Of a DNA stretch of 32,439 bases, positions 27,385 to 32,333 are shown piece by piece. Below the pieces are notes generated by a model, which did no database searches, was not told where the DNA came from, and worked only from the letters and a program-made list of their open reading frames with translations. Source of the stretch: a virus; the IMG/VR virus record IMGVR_UViG_3300034284_001649, positions 1-32,439 of that record; one strand, 5' to 3'. The position numbers were made by a program, and so were the translations under genes. Each line of letters begins with the position of its first letter. Within the stretch, counting starts at the first letter, position 1.

Positions 27385-29802
27385 ATGATAACCAAGGCGT
27401 TCAAACTTTTCCCCTACCAAGAGAAAGCCGTGGAACGGCACCTGAAGATCCTGGACTCGGTCGGAGCGTCACTCGACGGGACCGGGTGTGGTGGGGGCAA
27501 GACCATCATCGCCAGTGCTGTTGCTGCACGATATGCGCTAAAAGTGTGCGTTGTGTGTCCTAAAAGTGTCATTTTCAAATGGACAGAAACCCTGTCCAGC
27601 TTTGGGGTGAATCCTCTGTTCTGCTTGAACCCCGAAAAGTTACGGAACGGGAACACCCCGTGGCTCAAAAAGATACCCAAAGGAGGAAAGAAGATTGCCT
27701 TTGAGTGGCAGCTTCCCGAGCGGTGTCTTCTCATCTTCGATGAGGCGCACATGTTTGGGGCTTACAACTCCCAGAACGGGAAGATGCTGGAAGCCGCCGC
27801 GGGGGACCATACGGTCTTGATGCTCTCGGCCACGGCCGCGGAGTCGCCGCTCAAAATGAAGGCGATCGGGGTCAACCTCCGGCTCTTCACCTCCGGCTAC
27901 TTCTGGAAATGGGTCCGTGAGATGGGGGCCGAAGAAGGGCGCTGGGGTGGCCTCGAATGGAATCCCCGCCGCCCAGAGAACAAAGAAAAGATGGAGCGGC
28001 TTCACCATTCGGTATTCGCGAACCGCGGATACCGGGTAAGCGAGGACGAGCTTCGCGAGGAGTTGCCGGAATTGATGCTTTCAGACGAGCCGCTTTGGCT
28101 CTCAGACAAAGACCGCACTAAAATAAAAGAACTCTATGAAGAAATGGCAGATCCCGAAGATCCGGGCGGCGTCAAAAACCTCCGGCAGCGGCAAGCGATC
28201 GAGCTTGTCAAAATCCCCTACCTCGTCGAGAGGGCCAAGGAGATCGTCGAGTCCGGAGGGTCGGCGGTCGTCTTCCTCAACTTTCACGAAAGCATCGACG
28301 CCGCACGGATTCACTTTGAGGGAGGCTGCGTCATCGACGGACGGGAAAGCGCGAAAGCCAGGGCGGAAACCCAACGCCGTTTCCAAGCCAACGAACTCCG
28401 GACGATCATCGTGCAAATCGCGGCCGGCGGACAAAGCATCGACCTACACGACACTATGGGAGAGTTCCCGCGAGTGGCACTTCTCTGTCCACAATTCTCT
28501 GGCCTCGTGGAAGAGCAGGCTCTTGGACGTGTGCGAAGGGTGGGTGCCAGGTCTCGGGCACTGGCTCTGCGGCTCTACGCGCCGCGCTCGGTCGAGGAAG
28601 GTGCGCTCAAACTAACGGCCGAAAAACGGGAAAATGTAGGGATCTTAAATTTTGGTGAAAAAAATTTGAACAATGGGGTGATCACCCCTGTCTCATCTTC
28701 CGTGACGTTAATAACCCCACAAATTGATGCGCAGCAGCACAGCGAACATTCGCCAAGCTCCCTTAAAGAAAAAGCCAAATGTCCAGGATTCCGCAACGAC
28801 CAAACTCGCGATCAAACCGCCGCCAACCGAGGGACGCTCGGTCACCTCGCGGTGGAAAAAGAAAACCTCGACGTGATCCCGCCGGACGACCCGAAACTGC
28901 GCGAAGCGGCGGGTATGTGTCTGAAGTATCTCGCAGTGCTAAGAGCACCCCTCGTAAAAGCGCGGGAGCTTCGGGAGCAACGCTACACCATGCTCGACCA
29001 GTTCGGACACATCGACCACATCATCCTGCATGGGGAAAACAAGGCCGAGCTAGTCGACTACAAATTTGCTTTCGGGGAATACGTGGCGGATTCACCACAA
29101 TTTTGGGCGTATGCCGTCGGCTTGTGGGACGCTCATCCTGAAGTCGAGCAACTCACCGTTCATGTTCTTCTCCCCTTCCGAGGGGTCATCGACCGCGAGA
29201 CGTGGCACCGGGAAAGTGACTACGATCGTCTGTCTGCGCAAACTGCCGCCATCATCGCTGCGGCGAGGCGGGATGACCCCTCGGACTATTTGACCGGCGC
29301 ACATTGCGCATGGTGCGCCAAACAAGCCAAGTGCCCGAAACTCTCGTCACTCGCACTGACGATTGCCTCAAACTACAAGGCCGACGAACTCGTCCTGCCC
29401 GAGCCCTACGATCCGGCCAACATCACCGACCCGCACGTAATGGCGTTCGCCAAGAAAGCTGCGCCGATTATGAAGTCATGGGCCGAGAAGGTGGATGCCG
29501 CGGCTCTTGATATGCGGCTCAACCAAGGGATTGAGATTCCTGGGTTCGAACTGGCCGAGCGCAATCTTCCTTTCAAGATCACCGACGCTCAAGCCGCTTG
29601 GGATGTGGTCAAAGACAAAATTACCCCCGAAGCCTTCGCCGCCTGTGCGGAGGTCAAGATCGGGGACTTGGAGAAAGCCATCGCCCGGACTGCCAAGCGC
29701 GGCGAGATGGCCAAAGCCAAGGAACAGCTTCGTGACGCGCTGGTTGATGCCAGCGCGGCCAAGTCCGAGGGGACTTATCACTACCTCAAAAAGACTAAAT
29801 AG
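27385..29802 (+). CDS. SF2 helicase fused to RecB/Cas4-type nuclease
   Basis: An 805-residue fusion. Residues 1-430 are an SF2 (SNF2/DEAD-like) helicase: FPYQEKAVERH, Walker A DGTGCGGGKT (32-41), DEAH at 119-122, LMLSATAAES near 150, GGQSID and motif VI QALGRVRRVG. After a low-complexity linker, residues about 455-700 read like the phage DUF2800/RecB nuclease family. They show SPSSLKEKAKCPGF (first Cys near 466), GTLGHLAVE (His486), GHIDHII (Asp543), ELVDYKF (Asp557-x-Lys559) and CAWCAKQAKC (641, 644, 650). One early and three late Cys fit a 4Fe-4S nuclease. A DNA end-processing recombination machine is inferred. Confidence 0.8.
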   Translation: MITKAFKLFPYQEKAVERHLKILDSVGASLDGTGCGGGKTIIASAVAARYALKVCVVCPKSVIFKWTETLSSFGVNPLFCLNPEKLRNGNTPWLKKIPKGGKKIAFEWQLPERCLLIFDEAHMFGAYNSQNGKMLEAAAGDHTVLMLSATAAESPLKMKAIGVNLRLFTSGYFWKWVREMGAEEGRWGGLEWNPRRPENKEKMERLHHSVFANRGYRVSEDELREELPELMLSDEPLWLSDKDRTKIKELYEEMADPEDPGGVKNLRQRQAIELVKIPYLVERAKEIVESGGSAVVFLNFHESIDAARIHFEGGCVIDGRESAKARAETQRRFQANELRTIIVQIAAGGQSIDLHDTMGEFPRVALLCPQFSGLVEEQALGRVRRVGARSRALALRLYAPRSVEEGALKLTAEKRENVGILNFGEKNLNNGVITPVSSSVTLITPQIDAQQHSEHSPSSLKEKAKCPGFRNDQTRDQTAANRGTLGHLAVEKENLDVIPPDDPKLREAAGMCLKYLAVLRAPLVKARELREQRYTMLDQFGHIDHIILHGENKAELVDYKFAFGEYVADSPQFWAYAVGLWDAHPEVEQLTVHVLLPFRGVIDRETWHRESDYDRLSAQTAAIIAAARRDDPSDYLTGAHCAWCAKQAKCPKLSSLALTIASNYKADELVLPEPYDPANITDPHVMAFAKKAAPIMKSWAEKVDAAALDMRLNQGIEIPGFELAERNLPFKITDAQAAWDVVKDKITPEAFAACAEVKIGDLEKAIARTAKRGEMAKAKEQLRDALVDASAAKSEGTYHYLKKTK

Positions 29803-29830: not shown

Positions 29831-30583
29831 ATGGGAAAAGTATCGTTCGACGAAATCGTGCCAACCTCCACCGAGGACAAGGCTATCGCAATCAAACCCG
29901 AGACGACGCTCACCGCGCCCATCATCGCCGACCCCGAAAAGGGCTTGGTCGGTGAATGGACCAGTGAGGACATCCGCCTCCCCCGCCTGAACTTGGTCAA
30001 CAAGTCCGGCGACCTCTCCAACAACTTCACGCCCGGATGCTGGGTGATCCAGAAGGAACACCAAATCTCCAACGTCGCGAAAGACAACAAGGAGAAAGGT
30101 GAACCGATCTTGGTCATCGGCGCACGCATGATGAAGCAATACCAAGAGAACATTCCTTACGATGAGCGCGAGTCGACTCCGACCAGGGTGTTCAACACCG
30201 CAGCCGAAGTTCGCGCTGAGAACGGCTTCATCTCCCGCAAGCGCGGCCTCGGCAACTTCAGTGAGATCGCGCACATCGAGTTTTTTGTGCAGGAATCCGA
30301 CGCGCTTTCCGAAGACGCCAAGGCTCTCTTCTTCTACACCTTCGGTGACAAGAAGTATGCCCGCGTCATCTACACGGCGAGCAGCACTTCGTTCTCCGCA
30401 GTCGCGGTCACGATGGCATCCGCCCTCCGCGGTCACCTCGCCAATACCGGCCTGATTGGCGGTTTTTGGCAACTCGGTTCGGTCCTAACCAAGGACACGA
30501 AGAACTCATGGTGGTCACCCACCCTTCGCACCGCGGGACTCGTTGAAGACTCCGTGCGCGAAGAGATCGCTGCCTTGATCTAA
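29831..30583 (+). CDS. Conserved-type phage protein, possible ssDNA-binding
   Basis: A 250-residue protein: MGKVSFDEIVPTSTEDKAIA, then IRLPRLNLVNKSGDLSNNFT, GEPILVIGARMMKQYQENIP, NFSEIAHIEFFVQESDALSE, ALFFYTFGDKKYARVIYTAS and a C-terminal AVAVTMASALRGHL. The beta pattern with aromatic residues and its place right after the recombination nuclease fit a replication or recombination accessory protein. I recall similar proteins in other phages as unknowns. The frame is open upstream, but the ATG after the leader motif is the sensible start. Function not assigned. Confidence 0.6.
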   Translation: MGKVSFDEIVPTSTEDKAIAIKPETTLTAPIIADPEKGLVGEWTSEDIRLPRLNLVNKSGDLSNNFTPGCWVIQKEHQISNVAKDNKEKGEPILVIGARMMKQYQENIPYDERESTPTRVFNTAAEVRAENGFISRKRGLGNFSEIAHIEFFVQESDALSEDAKALFFYTFGDKKYARVIYTASSTSFSAVAVTMASALRGHLANTGLIGGFWQLGSVLTKDTKNSWWSPTLRTAGLVEDSVREEIAALI

Positions 30584-30591
30584 CCCAATTT

Positions 30592-30667
30592 CCCCGGTGG
30601 GAGGCTTATTGCGGGTGTCGTGGGTCACCCGCCCGGCTATGGGCCGGCCTTTCTCCTCCTGCCGGGG
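30592..30667 (+). ncRNA. Three-way-junction RNA leader
   Basis: The RNA folds on paper into a closed three-way junction. A 13-bp outer stem joins 30592-30604 (CCCCGGUGGGAGG) to 30655-30667 (CCUCCUGCCGGGG), 11 Watson-Crick plus two G-U pairs. Hairpin A has 7-bp GCGGGUG/CACCCGC (30611-30617/30626-30632), loop of 8. Hairpin B has 5-bp CCGGC/GCCGG (30633-30637/30643-30647), loop of 5. The gene start is 15 bases after the stem and no T-run follows, so it is not a normal terminator. It may be a cis-regulatory or stabilising leader. I match it to no known riboswitch. Confidence 0.65.
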
Positions 30668-30682
30668 ACCCCTTTCAAAACT

Positions 30683-31045
30683 ATGGATTCCAACACTGAA
30701 ATTTTAACATACGACCCGGCGGCATTTGAACTGGACGCCGAGGGCTATATGGAAAAGACCGCCGAGGCTCTCGGCATCAAGACCGAGATGGGCCGCAAAG
30801 CCTTCCGGGCTTTCTGTGAGGCTTCTGTTCTCCTCGACACCAAGCAACGCGACTACGGCAGCGGAAACATCTCTGCCTTCGGCGAGAAGGGCATCGTCGT
30901 TCGCATGAACGACAAGATCGAACGGCTCAAAACACTCGTCTGGGGCGACAAGTCCCCTTCGCACGAAAAGGTCAGCGACACTTGGCTCGACATCGCCAAC
31001 TACGGCGTGATCGGACTCCTTTGTCATAGGGGGGAGTGGAAATGA
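30683..31045 (+). CDS. DUF1599/Nmad1-like protein
   Basis: The 120-residue protein has KQRDYGSGNISAFGEKGIVV, RMNDKIERLKTLVWGD and VSDTWLDIANYGVIGLL, the Asp-Tyr-Gly, Arg-Met-x-Asp-Lys and Asp-x-Ala-Asn-Tyr order of the DUF1599 family ('nucleotide modification associated domain 1'). That family is linked by context to phage nucleotide metabolism, and the all-helical MazG-like look agrees. The start is ATG 30683 after the structured leader; a GTG inside the RNA (30620) is unlikely because it would run through the stems. It ends in an ATGA overlap with the next gene. Confidence 0.75.
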   Translation: MDSNTEILTYDPAAFELDAEGYMEKTAEALGIKTEMGRKAFRAFCEASVLLDTKQRDYGSGNISAFGEKGIVVRMNDKIERLKTLVWGDKSPSHEKVSDTWLDIANYGVIGLLCHRGEWK

Positions 31046-31673: not shown

Positions 31674-31854
31674 CTTCACCATCGGCCGCGTCGACTTCGG
31701 CCCCCGCGACTCTTTCGTCACGCTGGGAAGCCTCATCGAGGCAATCTCAACCCAAGAGGAACTGGTCGAAGATCTCTGCATTTTCGCAGGGAACCTCCTG
31801 ACCGAGAACCTCTGGCTGCAAGAACATCTGCCCGCGGAGATCTACGAGCTATGA
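31663..31854 (+). CDS. Small acidic hypothetical protein (63 aa)
   Basis: The sequence is MSTNFTIGRVDFGPRDSFVT, then LGSLIEAISTQEELVEDLCI and FAGNLLTENLWLQEHLPAEI. Mostly helical, acidic, no metal site or membrane helix. Overlap by 11 bases with the zinc-finger-like gene and an ATGA overlap with the polymerase-exonuclease gene put it in the same transcript. No family recognised. Confidence 0.55.
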   Translation: MSTNFTIGRVDFGPRDSFVTLGSLIEAISTQEELVEDLCIFAGNLLTENLWLQEHLPAEIYEL

Positions 31855-32333
31855 ATTTGCCGGAGGGGACAACCATAACAACAAACCCAGGGGTGGGAGT
31901 TGCGCTAAACAACTGTCCTCTCCGGCACCCCTCGGTCGCGATCGACTTCGAGTCCTACTACGACAAGGACATCTCGGTCACGACGATGGGCGCGTGGAAG
32001 TATGCCCGCGAGACCGACATCTACATGGTCGCGATGTATTTCGATGATGGGACTTGTTTCGTCGGTGAGCCGATCGATGCCCCTTGGCTCAAGTGCCATA
32101 AGCGCGATTGGATCATGCACAACGCAGCCTTCGATCTGACCCTCTATGAGGCACTCACCGAGAAGGGTTGGGTGACCCGCGTGGAGCCCCGTTACGTCTT
32201 CGATACCGCCGATCTCGCCGCCTACCTCGGCTATCCCCGATCTCTTAAAGAAGCAGCCAAACATCTCCTCGGGATCGAGATGAGCAAATCGACCCGAGAC
32301 AACATGAAAGGACTCAAATGGAACAAACAATGA
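31851..32333 (+). CDS. Family A DNA polymerase 3'-5' exonuclease part, truncated
   Basis: The 160-residue product shows exonuclease motif I as VAIDFESYYD (Asp32, Glu34) and motif II as IMHNAAFDLTLYE (Asn91, Asp95). Then comes DTADLAAYLGYPRSLKEAAK and LLGIEMSKSTRDNMKGLKW. This order is that of the exonuclease domain of phage family A polymerases. There the GxxW segment normally leads on to a Tyr-x3-Asp motif III and then to the polymerase. Here the frame stops at NKQ before motif III. Either a separate gene or insertion encodes the rest, or it lies in another frame beyond the right edge. Confidence 0.75.
   Translation: MNLPEGTTITTNPGVGVALNNCPLRHPSVAIDFESYYDKDISVTTMGAWKYARETDIYMVAMYFDDGTCFVGEPIDAPWLKCHKRDWIMHNAAFDLTLYEALTEKGWVTRVEPRYVFDTADLAAYLGYPRSLKEAAKHLLGIEMSKSTRDNMKGLKWNKQ

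Follow-up and report, generated by a model that had tools for sequence, protein, structure and literature searches.

A positional RNA hairpin between co-directional phage genes as a candidate intercistronic mRNA barrier

A comparative analysis of the RNA structure located at positions 30592-30667 (+) of an uncultured phage (IMG/VR record IMGVR_UViG_3300034284_001649, positions 1 to 32,439; this whole stretch of 32,439 nt is called the window) has indicated that it is a positional, structure-only hairpin between cistrons. The best explanation, in which moderate confidence is placed, is that this intercistronic hairpin blocks mRNA decay, allows leaky termination in relatives where the stem is followed by a U-rich tract, and separates the expression of the two genes that flank it.

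Fold and close relatives of the element

The element lies between two DNA replication genes, a Pam3 gp34-like gene (29831-30583, +; PF23977, just under the cut-off) and a gene for DUF1599, nucleotide modification associated domain 1 (30683-31045, +; PF07659, scoring 28 bits where the cut-off is 25), the latter already recognized as DUF1599-like in an earlier sequence-only reading. The AlphaFold model of the gp34-like protein has a pLDDT of 75, and its best PDB matches include OB-fold proteins (RPA, MCM) with E values of 0.03 or worse, which leaves an identity as SSB tentative. No tRNA or tmRNA genes were found in the window. The majority of the window genes lack a Shine-Dalgarno sequence and have AU-rich leaders, which may point to a host whose translation initiation does not need it.

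The three-way junction is both the minimum-free-energy and the centroid fold of 30592-30667 (-49.1 kcal/mol, z -4.1), and none of 200 shuffles was equally stable. The sequence-only reading, which had made its case depend on the ensemble favouring this fold, had described a fully paired outer stem of 13 bp with two G-U pairs (T30598-G30661 and G30599-T30660) and two inner hairpins, and this description was right to the base. It had also expected better pairing as RNA than as DNA, in agreement with the values obtained for the same strand as DNA (-24.8 kcal/mol) and for the complementary strand as RNA (-43.2 kcal/mol). Addition of the T30591-A30668 pair extends the outer stem P1 to 14 bp and the energy to -51.7 kcal/mol (30591-30668), and the hairpin is retained in both the minimum-energy and the centroid folds of a 201 nt context. 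The P1 5' arm TCCCCGGTGGGAGG (30591-30604, +), which begins 7 nt past the stop codon of the gp34-like gene (30581-30583), pairs with the 3' arm CCTCCTGCCGGGGA (30655-30668, +), which ends 14 nt before the ATG at 30683. Between both arms are J1/2 (CUUAUU, 30605-30610, +), a pyrimidine-rich junction of UCUUA/UUUU type in close relatives only; the P2 hairpin with a variable loop (30611-30632, +); the P3 hairpin (CCGGC...GCCGG, 30633-30647, +); and J3/1 (CCUUUCU, 30648-30654, +), which joins P3 to the P1 3' arm. An unstructured pyrimidine-rich spacer without Shine-Dalgarno sequence (30669-30682, +) leads to the next start codon. In a whole-window scan with a simple score that counts only Watson-Crick and G-U pairs, P1 obtained the top stem score of the 32.4 kb, tied with one other stem at 31858-31927.

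A search of viral contigs with the DUF1599 protein yielded 33 loci, the closest of which carry a hairpin with a nearly identical P1 immediately 5' of the gene. In 24 contigs, the window and two further variants from a P3 pattern scan (L035 and L036) among them, the covariance model R1 located the element a single time each; within this clade it always adjoins DUF1599 on the 5' side. With R1, credible further copies were absent from the same contigs, and no matches were obtained in the DUF1599 relatives L022-L034. A search of a phage collection found neither a close relative nor a hairpin match. Pattern matches in bacterial genomes were attributed to chance by their R1 score, and those in the viral loci L263, L270 and L274 were also chance, as the fold is absent from them.

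Three subtypes were distinguished: P1-P2-P3 (this phage, L008, L012, L020, L021, L035 and L036), P1 with a long P2 (L005, with 13 bp, an asymmetric internal loop and 8 bp) and P1 with a short P2 (L002, L004, L009 and others), P3 being lost in the last two. Unpaired junctions are alike among close relatives only, and in L308 the UCUUA junction is replaced by AAAA and the loop has 22 nt. L308 also contains, between gp34 and the hairpin (L308:1250-1365), a nested stem pair TTGGCAGG...CCTGCCAA around GTTCCCG...CGGGAAC. Two other candidates were rejected: J1/2 as a leader peptide or as the site of a hidden start (GGGAGGTTTTATG in L008) is not conserved by eye, and sequestration of a Shine-Dalgarno sequence by P1 does not hold, since L020/L021 have lost the SD-like GGAGG and such a sequence is missing from most genes here.

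Compensatory changes in homologues, proposed as a check in the sequence-only reading, were abundant. In the 16-sequence model alignment, 96.4% of the cells were paired, against 87.4% when shuffled; both sides had changed in 10 pairs, a number reached in 0 of 500 shuffles, and pairing fell to 53-61% when the 3' partners were slid by one column. Because the model alignment was fitted to the structure, P1 was also registered by hand, with 124 of 124 cells paired in 10 lineages and, including L308, L198 and L481, 150 of 150 in 12 lineages, 7 of 13 columns being compensatory. P2 likewise covaries (compensatory changes in 5 of 8 pairs), and P3, invariant wherever present, has no covariation support of its own. 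G-U outnumbered A-C by 28 to 3 in the model alignment and by 11 to 0 in the hand register of 12 lineages. This retention of G-U and not of A-C, an asymmetry that a DNA palindrome would lack, shows selection on the element as plus-strand RNA, as for an intercistronic stabilising stem-loop. That the element acts instead as DNA, through a palindrome that serves cruciform formation, recombination or replication, is very improbable on the same grounds and from its location, always between co-directional genes, although several relatives have perfect inverted repeats and the window strand folds well as DNA too.

The sequence-only reading had called the shape riboswitch- or ribozyme-like, recognizing neither a hammerhead core nor another class that it could name. 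With the Rfam covariance models no match was obtained at gathering thresholds or at permissive E-values (the best chance match, on the other strand, had an E value of 0.66), and no known catalytic core of a self-cleaving ribozyme was found among these models. A conserved structured plus-strand RNA, folded here as a three-way junction upstream of DUF1599, stands from that description. The likeness itself fails in the comparison, in which the homologues share no conserved ligand-binding core, the junction and loops vary, P3 is missing from two subtypes, and the more distant lineages have plain hairpins of unrelated stem sequence. The three-way junction and the adjoining nucleotide-metabolism genes would suit a riboswitch or ribozyme that senses a nucleotide for DUF1599; with the same site also preceding the polymerase, this is regarded as scarcely credible and as already contradicted by the comparative data.

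Location of the hairpin in distant relatives

The polymerase relatives L198 and L199 have no DUF1599 gene, yet they carry hairpins 7-10 nt past gp34, of 16 bp before DUF4406+DUF6378 in L198 and of 11 bp before DUF4406 in L199. More relatives, whose gp34-like genes share 32-60% identity, were obtained with the gp34 alignment as query, and in most of them a hairpin of 12-16 bp begins 5-10 nt past the gp34 stop, and 7-25 nt separate its end from the next start. After gp34 the hairpin is followed by DUF4406+DUF6378 also in L479-L481, by DUF4406 in L491 and by the polymerase in L482, L493, L496, L497, L537 and L538. In the distant phages L222, L253 and L205, hairpins of 14-17 bp are located 5' of the polymerase start, several with U-rich tails after them. 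Stem sequence turns over totally between lineages and loops range from 4 to 86 nt, and the hairpins are always found between co-directional genes.

In 18 of the 35 gp34 loci a stem scoring 31 or more lies no further than 130 nt past the stop, compared with 0.6% of random windows and with 3 of 275 (about 1%) ends of other genes from the window and the contigs of four relatives. In 32 of 36 distant loci a stem scoring 28 or more stands upstream of the DNA polymerase start, compared with 0.8% of random windows. Both locus counts take in near-identical loci and therefore represent fewer independent lineages. Distinct stems, judged by eye, are roughly 14 after gp34 and about 20 before the polymerase. 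In about 11 more gp34 loci the stem is found at a greater distance from the stop, a stretch or small gene having been inserted ahead of it. These insertions ahead of the hairpin include vwqk in most of this clade, 107 nt in L308 and about 245 nt in L498/L506, and the hairpin remains with the downstream start codon where they occur. A strong hairpin is absent from L500, L503, L539 and L542, so the element is dispensable.

The sequence-only reading had tied the structure to a nucleotide-modification gene. This link is not sustained by the distant loci, where hairpins at the same site precede DUF4406, DNA polymerase and unrelated genes, and a link to DUF1599 itself was rejected, as L022-L030 and other DUF1599 relatives have no hairpin and hairpins are present before other genes.

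Possible functions of the hairpin

In the preferred explanation, the hairpin would act as stable double-stranded RNA at a fixed place, independently of its sequence, and would form a barrier within a polycistronic replication message. The upstream segment (gp34, or gp34 plus the small gene) would keep or gain a 3' end at the hairpin, shielded there from 3'-5' exonucleases, with leaky termination in those relatives that have a U-tract after the stem. The downstream gene, often the DNA polymerase, would be expressed independently of it and probably less strongly. In addition, the hairpin may leave the short leader that precedes the downstream start codon, and that has no Shine-Dalgarno sequence, unstructured, and the P2/P3 junction of this phage would be a decoration on the conserved P1. 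A stable hairpin does lie between the stop and the next start of what is, from its co-directional and closely spaced genes, a putative single operon.

The best precedent is that of stable stem-loops located within operons, between two genes. In the cip-cel operon of Clostridium cellulolyticum, a case of selective RNA processing and stabilisation, the more or less stable stem-loops go with different expression ratios of the genes on either side, and orthologous stem-loops vary in number and structure across species, like the phage element; processing and expression ratios were measured there, whereas the phage element is known from its comparative pattern alone (PMC4423207). Stem-loops of puf and papBA likewise shield the upstream mRNA and determine the ratio of the genes, and a 3' structure that protects an upstream gene is also on record (PMC5927463). 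The puf intercistronic stem-loop, to which the phage element is similar in location, is a terminator of mRNA decay according to Chen et al. 1988, as cited in PMC5927463. For the phage element such a decay role is putative, and it differs in having a site conserved across phages with complete sequence turnover, which one clade has expanded into a three-way junction.

Some observations argue against the barrier. The hairpin staying with the downstream start would fit a function for the downstream gene no less well, and some P1 3' ends, with only 7-9 nt between them and the start codon, are so near that they could affect initiation. A translational element has been considered, either an operator for a phage protein or an insulator or road-block against re-initiating ribosomes that would keep the SD-less start accessible. 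Its distance of 7-27 nt from the downstream start even with genes inserted upstream, the lack of Shine-Dalgarno sequences in most window genes and the preference for polymerase starts would all agree with it; the hairpins, however, offer no conserved loop or bulge for a specific protein to read and precede unrelated genes too, and this alternative is considered unlikely but, like RNase III processing, a serious rival.

An RNase III processing site like those of T7, at which the host enzyme would cut the stem and split the operon message into separate mRNAs, is rather unlikely but merits attention. A hairpin of 12-16 bp is short for a usual RNase III substrate, and many relatives have single perfect hairpins of this length with loops of 4-10 nt; in addition, a cut at the second hairpin described below would wreck the polymerase reading frame. 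The intergenic position and the maintenance of structure without sequence would be expected of such a site, and the two helices with an asymmetric internal loop of L005 resemble T7 R1.1, whose 60-nt RNA lies between genes 1.0 and 1.1 and contains an internal loop of 4/5 nt (PMC6121014). The likeness to the early-region sites of T7 comprises a phage intergenic hairpin with, in some subtypes, two helices and an internal loop, and differs in the many single perfect hairpins found here, for which cleavage is putative.

The GC-rich hairpin near the upstream stop codon also recalls an intrinsic terminator, and a leaky one throughout, degenerate in this phage, would account for the U-rich tails of L198 (TCTTTTT), L482 (TTTTTTTC), L538 (CTTTTTTC) and L210 (TTTCTTAT). 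Unlike in terminators, however, the loops are large (up to 86 nt), and no U-tract directly follows the stem in this clade: the tail in this phage is ACCCCTTTCAAAACT, with 3 U in the first 8 nt and without a real T-run, as the sequence-only reading had stated. The clade has 2-4 U per 8 nt and some distant relatives 5-7, about half of the members having at most 4. A terminator scan detected here only P3 with CCTTTCT, a weak match among 15 sites when 12 are expected by chance. A terminator throughout is therefore improbable.

A second hairpin in the polymerase reading frame

The other top-scoring stem (31858-31927, +; arms 31858-31871 and 31914-31927) is a 14 bp hairpin of like style formed, in this phage and most relatives, by the N-terminal codons of the DNA polymerase exonuclease ORF. 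This ORF starts at the ATG 31851, just 5' of the hairpin, and overlaps the previous stop as ATGA (31851-31854). The arms are nearly all changed between lineages (TGCCGGAGGGGACA, CACTGGGAGACCGC and TGCCGGGGGACCAC), with compensatory changes in 10 of 14 pairs and a covariation score that was reached by 0 of 500 shuffles. The hairpin is in frame in all carriers, and it is very probably translated because all length differences are multiples of three and no stop occurs. L012 lacks it, and its ORF opens directly with MNQAVAIDF. As the hairpin of distant relatives precedes the polymerase start, the start codon appears to have shifted to the 5' side of the hairpin in this clade. This second hairpin is arguably stranger than the intergenic element, and a decay barrier makes less obvious sense at a translated hairpin.

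Tentatively, these hairpins might form a positional class of phage mRNA elements, defined by place and pairing and not by sequence, that flags the start of the DNA polymerase, or of the gene put before it, in many lineages and that has been absorbed into the polymerase coding sequence in one clade, still paired. If so, replication-protein ratios would be set by a shared mechanism invisible to ordinary motif searches. Covariance searches miss such an element because its sequence turns over completely, and synteny (a hairpin after gp34, before the polymerase) recovered it in loci where the model gave a low score or none. Should the hairpins determine how much polymerase is made in proportion to the upstream replication proteins, they would constitute a simple and portable control of phage expression.

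The polymerase exonuclease ORF (31851-32333) stops after 160 aa (STRDNMKGLKWNKQ*), whereas its L198 counterpart extends across the polymerase domain and reaches about 600 aa, which suggests a split or interrupted polymerase gene in this phage. A further palindrome, CCGAGGGGTCATC / GATGACCCCTCGG, with its arms 81 nt apart, is located within the helicase-exonuclease gene (29178-29284). In most relatives the three outermost positions covary (CGA/TCG, CAA/TTG, CGC/GCG and AGA/TCT), which is suggestive of a third paired element, though these positions are mismatched in L008 and L016 and protein constraint is an alternative.
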